A stretch of DNA of 64,000 nucleotides from Rheinheimera sp. UJ63 (lineage in GTDB: Bacteria > Pseudomonadota > Gammaproteobacteria > Enterobacterales > Alteromonadaceae), in NCBI RefSeq assembly GCF_021568285.1, contig NZ_JAKGTQ010000001.1, forward strand, positions 558,001 through 622,000, in the 5' to 3' direction. Positions 5,540 to 9,007 of the stretch are shown here, one piece after another. Within the stretch, counting starts at the first letter, position 1. Each line of letters starts with the position of its first letter. Under the pieces are notes generated by a model. The model was not told the DNA's origin. It made no database searches and was given only the letters and a program-made list of their open reading frames with translations. The position numbers and the translations under genes were made by a program.

Positions 5540-5989
5540 ATGCCAGTAGGCAATAACAATAAATCCCTTGGGCTATTAGCGCTAGCGGGCGTAGTACCCT
5601 ATGAAGCAGCGGTCGGGGAAGAGTACATGAACCCGAAGCAGTTGGAGCATTTCCGGAAAATTCTGGATGCATGGCGCCAACAACTTCGTGAAGAAGTGGA
5701 TCGCACTAAAACACATATGGCTGATGAAGCAGCTAATTTTCCTGATCCAGTGGATCGTGCAGCTCAAGAAGAAGAGTTCAGTTTAGAATTACGCGCACGG
5801 GATCGTGAACGTAAGTTGCTGAAGAAAATTGAAAAAACGTTACAAAAGATCGAAAATGACGACTTTGGTTTCTGTGATACCTGCGGTATCGAAATCGGTA
5901 TCAAACGGTTAGAAGCACGTCCTACTGCTGATCAATGTATTGATTGTAAGACGCTTGCTGAAATCAAAGAGAAGCAACTCGGCGGTTAA
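5540..5989 (+). CDS. dksA: RNA polymerase-binding transcription factor DksA
   Basis: DksA binds the RNA polymerase secondary channel and, with ppGpp, adjusts rRNA, amino-acid and virulence promoters. The 149-residue protein has the coiled-coil with the tip motif DPVDRA (69-74), whose aspartates contact the polymerase active-site region. It also has a complete four-cysteine zinc finger (Cys112, 115, 133, 136), so this is the zinc-containing form rather than a cysteine-poor paralogue. A good ribosome site (AGGAGA) precedes the ATG. gluQ follows almost directly, as in enterobacteria. Confidence 0.97.
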
Positions 5990-6005
5990 CGCTGCGGCAA
6001 CCTCA

Positions 6006-6911
6006 GTGTCAGCGCATCTTGCAAGGCAAACGGCCGGTTATCGCGGCCGTTTTGCTCCCTCCCCCTCGGGGCCATTACATTTTGGCTCACTCGTGGCGGC
6101 TGTTGGTAGTTATCTTCAAGCAAAAAGTCAGCACGGCCAATGGCTGTTACGTATCGAAGATATTGATACGCCTCGCATGCAAGCCAATGCCGATAGCGAC
6201 ATTATGCACACCCTAGAAAGCTTTGGTTTATGCTGGGATGGCCCGGTTATTTATCAAAGCCAACGGTTGGATCGCTATCAAGACGTATTTAATCAACTCC
6301 AGCAACAAGGCTTGCTGTACGGTTGCCAATGTTCACGCAAAGCAATCCAAGCCGCCGGCGGCCTCTATAACGGGCGCTGTGCCGCTAAACAATTGACGAC
6401 ACCGCCGTTAGCCTGGCGTCTGCGTGCGGCAGATGTGCATTGTCATTTCCATGATCAGGTGTTTGGTAACCAGCGTATCGATGCCGCTTTAGCTGCAGAA
6501 GATTATATCGTTAAGCGCCGCGATGGGTTATTTAGTTATCAACTGGTGGTGGTGATTGATGATCAGGATCAACAGATCAGCGAAGTGATCCGAGGGGCCG
6601 ATTTACTCAGTATGACTCCCAGGCAACAACATTTGTTTCAATTGCTGGGGCAAACCGCGCCACTGTACGGCCATTTACCCTTAGCCGTTACCGCGCCGGG
6701 GCAAAAACTGAGTAAACAAAACCATGCAAGCGCCCTCGCTCATTGGCCAAATCATCACAGTTTAACGGCGGCATTACGTTTGCTAGGCCATGCCCCGCCT
6801 GATGAACTACGGCAAGCGCCAGTAACGGAAATACTTGCTTGGGCCACCCAGCACTGGCAGCTGGCGAAGGTACCAAAACAACTCGAAATTCGCTGTGCAG
6901 ATTTTGCGTAA
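6006..6911 (+). CDS. gluQ: Glutamyl-Q tRNA(Asp) synthetase
   Basis: GluQ is a truncated glutamyl-tRNA synthetase that attaches glutamate to queuosine at the wobble position of tRNA-Asp. It has the class I HIGH-like segment (FAPSPSGPLHFGSL) near the N-terminus and the KMSKS-like KLSKQNH segment. A cysteine set (CQCS...C) matches the zinc site of the family. It lacks an anticodon-binding domain, as expected at about 300 residues. The start is uncertain. The only ATG in frame (5940) lies inside dksA and would add 22 unrelated residues. The GTG at 6006, 17 bases after the dksA stop, gives 301 residues and is preferred, though neither has a clear ribosome site. Confidence 0.93.
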   Translation: MSAHLARQTAGYRGRFAPSPSGPLHFGSLVAAVGSYLQAKSQHGQWLLRIEDIDTPRMQANADSDIMHTLESFGLCWDGPVIYQSQRLDRYQDVFNQLQQQGLLYGCQCSRKAIQAAGGLYNGRCAAKQLTTPPLAWRLRAADVHCHFHDQVFGNQRIDAALAAEDYIVKRRDGLFSYQLVVVIDDQDQQISEVIRGADLLSMTPRQQHLFQLLGQTAPLYGHLPLAVTAPGQKLSKQNHASALAHWPNHHSLTAALRLLGHAPPDELRQAPVTEILAWATQHWQLAKVPKQLEIRCADFA

Positions 6912-7034
6912 TTTGCGCGACATTGACTCAGCGTAATTAAAATACAGAGAGTGCCGCCTTGCATTCTCATTTTCCGCAGATTCAGGTATGATACGCCGGT
7001 TTTTTCGGCTCAAAACAGCCCGTTCGTTTCCATT

Positions 7035-7050
7035 GAGGAGAAACACCATT
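7035..7050 (+). promoter_or_regulatory. Ribosome binding site and AUU initiation codon of pcnB
   Basis: A strong GAGGAG (7035-7040) lies seven bases before an ATT at 7048-7050. No ATG, GTG or TTG lies at that distance in the pcnB frame. The residues after the ATT align with the start of E. coli PcnB, which is known to begin at AUU. The nearest in-frame ATG (6988) has no comparable ribosome site. Confidence 0.8.
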
Positions 7051-8475
7051 ATTTCGCGCGTGATTGACTTTTGCCGTCGTACCCTTGGCGCAAAAAATAC
7101 CGAAACCGTAACGACCGAGCCAGTGGCTGCCGTTGCAAAAACTGCCGTGTCTAGCTTACCGCCGATGCGGGTTATTGGCCGTGATCAACACTCGATTTCT
7201 CGCAAAGACATCAGCCCGAATGCGCTGAAGGTGCTTTATCGTCTGAAAGACGCTGGCTTTGAGGCATATTTGGTGGGCGGCTGTATCCGCGATTTACTGA
7301 TTGGTTTAAAACCCAAAGATTTTGATGTGGTGACCAATGCTCGCCCAGAAGAAATTAAACAGGTCTTTCGTAACTGCCGCTTAATTGGCCGCCGCTTTCG
7401 CTTAGCGCATGTGGTTTTTGGCCGTGAAGTCATCGAAGTGGCAACGTTTCGTGGCCACCATAGCGGTGCCGAAGACGATGAAAATGTTAACAAAATCGCT
7501 AGCTTAAGCGATCATGGTCAGATCCTGCGGGATAATGTCTATGGCACCATCGAAGAAGATGCTGAACGTCGTGACTTCACCGTTAACGCGCTGTATTACT
7601 CGATCAAAGATTTTACCATTTACGATTTTGCCGAGGGCATGCAAAGCATCGCCAATCGCAATATCGAGTTAATTGGCGATCCTGACGTGCGTTACCGTGA
7701 AGATCCGGTGCGGATTTTGCGCGCCATCCGTTTTGCCACCAAACTGAATATGCAATTGGCGGCGAAAACGGCTGCGCCGATCCCGCAATTAGCGGTATTG
7801 CTGAAAAACATTCCGGCACCACGCTTATTTGATGAGCTGGTAAAAATGTGGTTAGCCGGAAAAGGTTTCGATAACTTCATGCTGATGCGTGAGTTAAAAG
7901 TGCTGAAGCAATTGTTACCGCAGTTAGAAAAACTGCTGAAACAAGAGCCTGAAGGTAAAGCCTTTCAACTGATCACCCGCGCGTTACAAGATACTGATCA
8001 ACGTGTAGCGCAAGATAAACCGGTGACTCCCGCCTTTATTTTTGCGGCATTACTCTGGTATCCGGTTGAAGTACGCGCTCAAACCTTACTGATTGAAAGC
8101 GGTTTAAACGAGAACGACGCTTTTAGTATCGCCATGACCGAAATTTTGGATGATGTGCAGCGCAATATTGCCATTCCTAAACGCTTTAGCCTAGCCATGC
8201 GTGACATCTGGATGTTACAAGGTCGCCTGACTAAGCGCGCGGGTCGGCGTGCCTATAAGCTTATGGAACAAACCAAGTTTCGCGGTGCTTATGATTTTCT
8301 GGTGCTGCGAGCAGCGGCCGAAGGCGGCGATTTGCCTGAATTAGCGCAGTGGTGGGAACAATTTCAGTTTACCGACGAAGCGAATCGATTAGAGTTAATT
8401 CAGCAATTGGGGCGCGCCGGACAAGAAAGACCGAAGCGTCGGCGTAATTACAAACGTAAACCGAGCCATGATTAA
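7048..8475 (+). CDS. pcnB: Poly(A) polymerase I, probable AUU start
   Basis: PcnB adds poly(A) tails to RNA 3' ends and so marks them for decay. The nucleotidyltransferase signature is clear: GGCIRDLLIGLKPKDFDVV, with the two catalytic aspartates in the DFD. RRDFTVNALYYS and the RYREDPVRILRAIRF segment follow, then a basic, Arg/Lys-rich tail (RPKRRRNYKRKP). From the ATT at 7048 the protein has 475 residues and its start (SRVIDFCRRTL) matches E. coli PcnB (TRVANFCRKVL). Starting at the upstream ATG (6988) would add 20 residues with no counterpart. The stop overlaps the folK start by eight bases. Confidence 0.95.
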   Translation: MISRVIDFCRRTLGAKNTETVTTEPVAAVAKTAVSSLPPMRVIGRDQHSISRKDISPNALKVLYRLKDAGFEAYLVGGCIRDLLIGLKPKDFDVVTNARPEEIKQVFRNCRLIGRRFRLAHVVFGREVIEVATFRGHHSGAEDDENVNKIASLSDHGQILRDNVYGTIEEDAERRDFTVNALYYSIKDFTIYDFAEGMQSIANRNIELIGDPDVRYREDPVRILRAIRFATKLNMQLAAKTAAPIPQLAVLLKNIPAPRLFDELVKMWLAGKGFDNFMLMRELKVLKQLLPQLEKLLKQEPEGKAFQLITRALQDTDQRVAQDKPVTPAFIFAALLWYPVEVRAQTLLIESGLNENDAFSIAMTEILDDVQRNIAIPKRFSLAMRDIWMLQGRLTKRAGRRAYKLMEQTKFRGAYDFLVLRAAAEGGDLPELAQWWEQFQFTDEANRLELIQQLGRAGQERPKRRRNYKRKPSHD

Positions 8476-9007
8476 GCAGACAGAATTATGCTATATCGGC
8501 TTGGGAGCGAATCTCACAGAGCCCGTCGCCCAGTTACAGCGAGCCGTTGCGGCATTAGCGCAACTGCCTGCTTGCCAACTGTTGCACGTATCACGTTTTT
8601 ACAGTTCTAAGCCGATGGGGCCGCAAGACCAGCCTGACTATGTCAATGCGGTGGCGGCCTTAAATACCGAGCTTAGTGCACAGCAATTACTGCAGGCTTT
8701 GCAACAGATTGAACGGGAACAAGGGCGGCAGCGTAAAGCCGAACGCTGGGGGCCGCGCACTCTCGATCTGGACATATTATTATTTGGGCAACAGCAGATT
8801 GCTACACCAAGCCTCACCGTGCCGCATTACGGTATGACGAAACGCGAATTTGTGCTGTACCCATTAGCAGAGATTGCGCCGAACTTAGTATTACCCGACG
8901 GCACCGCTCTATCGCAATGGCTTAGCGCCGTGCCGTTAAATGGCTTGCAACCGCTGCAACTTGCCGCTCAAGGTACTTTGTGCGAAGGTGCACCCTCAGA
9001 CAATTAG
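8468..9007 (+). CDS. folK: 6-hydroxymethyl-7,8-dihydropterin pyrophosphokinase (HPPK)
   Basis: FolK transfers pyrophosphate from ATP to 6-hydroxymethyl-dihydropterin in folate synthesis. The HPPK signature [13 protein letters not shown] is present, with the two metal-binding aspartates in LDLD. The N-terminal GLGANL and the [15 protein letters not shown] substrate segment are also present. It is 179 residues long, slightly longer than E. coli FolK (159), through a C-terminal extension. The ATG overlaps the end of pcnB by eight bases, implying coupled translation, and panB follows. Confidence 0.96.

Follow-up and report, generated by a model that had tools for sequence, protein, structure and literature searches.

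The pcnB gene of Rheinheimera sp. UJ63, encoding poly(A) polymerase I, probably starts at an AUU codon, the one at position 7048, and codons of the form AUH (AU followed by any base but G) occupy the aligned start of pcnB throughout the genus and in most of the order. That a near-cognate start lies at this place, and that such a start is conserved, is well supported by the comparison of sequences. All positions refer to the window, the stretch of 64,000 nucleotides that was analyzed, and the features used below, all on the plus strand, were as follows.

5540..5989, + strand: dksA, upstream neighbor (TIGR02420, over cut-off)
5940..6911, + strand: gluQ, tRNA glutamyl-Q synthetase (NF004314 and TIGR03838, both over cut-off)
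6964..6992, + strand: promoter-like site, TTCTCA - 17 nt - TATGAT, the sole promoter-like match in 6850-7200
6988..6990, + strand: ATG, probably the mis-assigned start of a public 495-aa protein (P0001 and P0002 begin here); no favorable Shine-Dalgarno (SD) score
7033..7035, + strand: TTG, an unlikely start that overlaps the SD; with ATG 6988, one of the two in-frame NTG codons from the upstream stop to 7048
7035..7040, + strand: SD GAGGAG, duplex with the 16S tail -9.3 kcal/mol, with a counterpart in relatives
7048..7050, + strand: ATT, most likely the pcnB start codon by SD score, profile alignment and alignment with E. coli; aligned spacing 5
7051..7053, + strand: second ATT in tandem, residue 2, an alternative start from the sequence; spacing 8
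7048..8475, + strand: pcnB, poly(A) polymerase I, 475 aa from ATT 7048 (TIGR01942)
8468..9007, + strand: folK, downstream neighbor (TIGR01498, over cut-off)

The identity of the gene was examined using profile models and gene order. Its product scored 527.4 bits against the subfamily model TIGR01942 (cut-off 305.65) and 569.5 bits against the narrower equivalog NF008634 (PRK11623), which is below the cut-off of 702 for that model. The NF008634 match was nearly full length (profile 1-463 of 469), and we read the lower score as divergence from the narrow model. The window carries the order dksA-gluQ-pcnB-folK-panB, an arrangement that E. coli K-12 shares for the first four genes; the listed gluQ open reading frame begins at a TTG overlapping dksA. 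The best named relatives of the window PcnB were from Alishewanella tabrizica (87% identity) and A. longhuensis (86%), indicating an Alishewanella-type genome.

Every in-frame ATG, GTG, TTG, CTG, ATT, ATC and ATA before the conserved core was scored by pairing with the 16S rRNA tail and a spacing penalty, without a bonus for codon type. ATT 7048 was the best of the frame at -9.3 kcal/mol and an aligned spacing of 5, and ATT 7051 scored -8.15 kcal/mol at a spacing of 8. The sequence-only reading had placed GAGGAG at 7035-7040, followed by seven bases (7041-7047) and ATT at 7048-7050, and these coordinates were correct; its claim that no ATG, GTG or TTG suits this SD also held, with ATG 6988 and TTG 7033 both lacking a favorable score. 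A hidden canonical start was ruled out, as no in-frame ATG, GTG, TTG or CTG competed with ATT 7048 in SD score. The AUU thus sits at the conserved N-terminus of PcnB with an SD at working distance, in a frame free of any competing ATG, GTG or TTG with a usable SD. Position 1 of the NF008634 profile aligned to residue 1 of the product from 7048 and to residue 21 of the product from 6988. The tandem ATT at 7051-7053, directly after the first, had not been remarked on in the sequence-only reading; the sequence into the gene reads TTGAGGAGAAACACC-ATT-ATT-TCG-CGC-GTG and the predicted N-terminus from ATT 7048 is (f)M-I-S-R-V-I-D-F-C. The proposed alignment of SRVIDFCRRTL with TRVANFCRKVL of E. coli was sound, except that these segments begin at residue 3 and not at the very start of the protein.

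As a control, the same scoring was applied to 40 E. coli genes whose starts are annotated. In only 25 of them did the SD model put the annotated start in first place; an ATH codon scored above the best NTG at all in eight and by more than 2 kcal/mol in two. The SD at 7048 was strong (-9.3 compared with a median of -5.97 kcal/mol for the 40 control genes). The site would therefore pair a weak codon with a good SD, and by analogy with E. coli its translation may be limited by the codon. A leader hairpin covering the start was considered and is not claimed: folding of the leader in three stretches, run without a shuffled control, gave structures that differed between stretches.

To determine how far the start is conserved, the aligned codon was compared within the genus. 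A PcnB search found matches in 31/31 genus genomes, and 30 loci were fetched, the window's own included. The aligned start codon was ATT in 21 loci, ATA in eight and ATC in one, each at a spacing of 5. ATG at this position, fixed beforehand as the observation that would speak against the proposal, was sought in the 30 loci and found in none. A counterpart of the GAGGAG was present in the 5' regions of the relatives' pcnB genes. The expectation that the non-AUG start is conserved was upheld for AUH and failed for AUU itself: strict AUU conservation was ruled out by the AUA and AUC codons at the aligned position in 9/30 genus loci. The conserved feature is a codon of AU plus any base but G that follows a good SD, not AUU as such.

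The comparison was extended to the GTDB order using 169 pcnB loci from several searches and fetched stretches. Two loci (L121 and L216) were dropped, and the 167 readable loci include the 30 of the window's genus (with the window) and more than one locus for several genera; many were fetched for their best scores, and not every matched genus was fetched. A non-AUG start was conserved in these relatives as well, with AUH as the top call in 147/167 order loci alongside 30/30 in the genus; the order calls comprised 105 ATT, 31 ATC and 11 ATA. In 136/167 loci the ATH codon had a margin of 2 kcal/mol or more over the best in-frame NTG; these loci span 83/109 genera and 18/25 families, and among the E. 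coli control genes 2/40 had a margin of more than 2. For 81 of the 147 ATH loci the open frame upstream held no ATG, GTG or TTG whatsoever, the preceding stop sometimes lying 1-5 codons away, and 72 of these 81 also had no downstream NTG scoring below -3 before the conserved core. The 147 ATH starts had a median SD score of -7.01 and the E. coli control genes one of -5.97, a comparison biased in favor of the first set by its selection on score. With SDs this good, it is the codon that would be weak at these sites. No ATH call was made in 20/167 loci. Among them, ATG was read in four genera of family f177 and, one codon upstream, in two of family f189; the others include single GTG or TTG cases, reduced genomes lacking the N-terminus and diverged members. 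In f177 (L192, L198, L199 and L206), which belongs to the same order, pcnB seems to be ATG-initiated, making it a natural contrast group for the level of poly(A) polymerase I.

The picture was mixed among the 118 loci from outside the order, three of which are duplicates, and conservation in all Gammaproteobacteria is unsupported. Burkholderiales loci showed a conserved M-I-K-x-F/L start, with TTG in two (L084 and L104). A loose rule flagged 29 loci as strong ATH, and the same rule also caught false sites deep in the gene, as in the Methylophaga loci L063, L065 and L067, which carry ATG. Only 12 of the 29 had no ATG, GTG or TTG in the examined stretch ahead of the conserved core, and they serve as leads only. 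In these twelve (L062, L071, L075, L145, L155, L157, L161, L165, L283, L287, L291 and L315) the ATH codon was well scored. Non-AUG pcnB starts may recur in other Gammaproteobacteria.

We also examined the third base of the start codon on a quick, approximate tree of 166 PcnB cores (about 150 residues; L230 left out), with f177 loci L192, L198, L199 and L206 labelled NTG by hand. As minimum counts on this tree, there were at least 32 third-base changes within the set T, C and A and at least 14 exchanges between ATH and NTG, some of the latter from weak calls. At four-fold sites of these pcnB genes the share of G is 20%; if G were as welcome at the start codon as elsewhere, the chance of at most one change to G among 33 would be roughly 0.006, a rough figure because tree changes are not fully independent and the single change to G (f177) is our own reading. 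Since fMet is inserted whichever codon is used, the pattern is consistent with selection against a codon that pairs fully with the initiator tRNA. A rival account concerns the cause of AUH and not the position of the start: AUH would persist through drift or because of the surrounding nucleotides (mRNA folding near the SD, for instance), and not through selection for weak initiation. The loss of AUH in some lineages and the invariance of further early codons in the genus are consistent with it. Against it, a change to AUG is free at the protein level, and T, C and A have interchanged at least as often as counted above. In the available portion of an ancestral reconstruction survey (PMC5622118), one of 61,358 starts that were ancestrally AUG had switched to AUU, and shifts of GUG and UUG starts to AUG were commoner than those in the opposite direction. 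We consider drift or context an unlikely explanation.

The foremost of the alternative start positions is the second ATT, 7051, used alone or along with 7048. Codon 7051 was ATT in 30/30 genus loci, while the first codon varied (ATT, ATA, ATC) and all four conserved internal Ile codons of the PcnB core varied as well. The codon after the called start was also ATH in 80/95 loci of the window's family compared with 2/52 in other families, and in some loci of that family, as well as in two further families (for example L138, L183, L261 and L167), the residue-2 codon alone was ATH and was the called start. Codon 5, GTG 7060, was equally invariant (30/30) yet is no plausible start for this SD, and part of the invariance of 7051 may reflect a general constraint on early codons. 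In addition, it is 7048 and not 7051 that aligns with the E. coli AUU, and the spacing of 7051 is 8 compared with 5 for 7048. The spacing of 5 for the first codon in 30/30 genus loci is the reason that 7048 is kept as the likelier start, and initiation at 7051, alone or together with 7048, appears improbable. Runs of two or three AUH codons were seen at the start among L005-L033 (AUC-AUU-AUU, AUC-AUA-AUU), and some lineages had AUH at the second position only, as if the start had slid by one codon.

Translation from ATG 6988, which would add a 20-residue N-terminal extension, is very improbable. This codon is the first ATG of the frame, and the sequence-only reading foresaw that gene finders would place the start there; two matching public proteins (495 aa) do begin at it, and a third begins at an internal Met (436 aa). 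The same ATG opens a frame in L007-L009, as in the window locus. It has no favorable SD score and it lies within the -10 box TATGAT (6987-6992), so that a transcript from that promoter would begin downstream of it. In L005 and L006, the two closest relatives, the frame of the same ATG meets TAA after 8 codons. Within 110 bases upstream of pcnB, TATGAT was found in 6 of the 30 genus loci and TATTAT, which leaves no such ATG, in 22; neither was found in two. The -10 box is therefore kept in the genus (28/30 loci), and the reading frame from its ATG is not always kept. As 0.3 promoter-like matches are expected by chance in 6850-7200, the match at 6964..6992 is weak evidence alone.

Several observations concern the same leader. 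In many families a TATNAT -10 box is followed by a GC-rich stretch of the TAGCGCC/ACGCCGG type (6987-6998 in the window). A -10 box with a GC-rich stretch is the promoter type held down by ppGpp and DksA. The dksA gene itself lies two genes upstream of pcnB in the window. In four loci of the genus (L019, L022, L024 and L027), tandem units of about 21-24 bases before the SD seem to have lengthened the pcnB leader, and by eye these units have inverted symmetry of the CAGCTCA-GGCTGT type.

Analysis of the 120 public relatives listed (the best of 7,896) revealed 51 with an upstream extension, 29 beginning from residue 5 (S-R-V) and 40 beginning elsewhere; none of these 120 used the predicted start codon. 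Three of the 51 (P0061, P0064 and P0067) begin M-A-I-I-S-R-V and so would have an NTG two codons before the AUH pair, which counts against 7048. For E. coli, the AUU start is annotated in the two PGAP-annotated RefSeq records that were opened. The 29 entries from residue 5 illustrate the last alternative, in which GTG 7060 is the start and the AUH run is an incidental pair of hydrophobic codons. GTG can serve as a start codon and stands at this position in 30/30 genus loci, but it lies 19 nt from the SD, the valine codon is GTC in E. coli and often not GTG across the order, and conserved residues would be lost, so that this start too can be set aside as highly implausible. With AUU 7048 as the probable start, N-terminal comparisons and expression constructs based on such public entries are likely off.

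We then compared the site with known systems. That E. coli pcnB uses AUU, as had been stated in the earlier reading, was verified: the K-12 RefSeq start is at ATT in the same context as in the window, and it scored -7.19 kcal/mol at a spacing of 4. The 50 bases around the E. coli start were matched in 5,372/5,426 genomes, 5,367 of them at 99% identity or higher. In the E. coli genome collection three pcnB places fell on plasmid-labelled records, which are mislabelled or are chromosomal pieces. The passages available from two papers (PMC9764084, PMC9410913) give the AUU start of E. coli pcnB with citation of Binns & Masters 2002. The two genes share the gene family, the neighbors dksA-gluQ-pcnB-folK, AUU at the aligned codon and TATGAT upstream. 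They differ in the spacing of the AUU (4 in E. coli, 5 here), in the SD (UUGAGGAGA at -9.3 here, CGAGGUG at -7.2 in E. coli) and in the second codon, AUU here and UUU in E. coli; other species of the window's genus also have AUA or AUC, unlike the AUU of E. coli. The strong SD of the window locus conflicts with the 'poor ribosome-binding site' ascribed to E. coli pcnB in an excerpt of PMC9764084.

The other known AUU gene is infC, and IF3 discrimination against AUU is named as the basis of infC self-regulation in the part of PMC9410913 that was available. In the genus, infC had ATT in 19/19 genomes examined, behind UCGGAGGA. Both genes thus have a near-cognate AUH start; infC keeps ATT in the genus, whereas the aligned pcnB codon can be ATT, ATA or ATC there. 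The autocontrol of infC targets the factor's own gene, whereas pcnB would be a passenger of IF3 discrimination. The infC gene of one genus of the order (L346) seems to have an ATA start (ACT-ATA-AAT-AAC) instead of ATT. A further parallel comes from Staphylococcus aureus, for which the accessible text of PMC13009471 reports non-canonical starts with an extended SD for infC (AUA), cvfC1 (AUU) and ccpN (AUA). These are likewise near-cognate AUH codons paired with strong SDs, and in the same text within-group conservation is reported for cvfC1 and ccpN ('novel and conserved'). The S. aureus cases involve other genes in another phylum and were mapped by Ribo-Ret in that account, whereas the start described here is deduced by comparison.

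By analogy with E. coli, a mechanism can be proposed for the window locus. A sigma-70-type promoter with its -10 box at 6987-6992 would give a short-leader mRNA from about 7000, on which GAGGAG at 7035-7040 would place the 30S subunit on AUU 7048. The initiator tRNA would read this AUU with a third-base mismatch, and rejection of such codons by IF3 would hold synthesis of poly(A) polymerase I at a low rate despite the good SD. The window pcnB may accordingly be translated at a low, IF3-sensitive rate, as E. coli pcnB would lead one to expect. AUU initiation of E. coli pcnB was already known; the breadth over the order and the AUA and AUC variants are newer, and no report of either was found in the open literature, with Binns & Masters 2002 known through citing papers. 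On a wider interpretation, to which we give even weight for and against, selection across the order, which takes in E. coli-like families and many others besides the window's genus, would hold pcnB to any AUH codon and not AUG, the start would slide within AUH runs and good SDs would set the low output; pcnB and infC would then form an ancient IF3-reading pair tying polyadenylation and decay to the state of initiation. Taken together, these data extend a two-gene E. coli curiosity to a comparative data set, and the retention of AU plus a base other than G at the start across many genera offers a natural case in which to test whether IF3 proofreading acts as a regulatory device.
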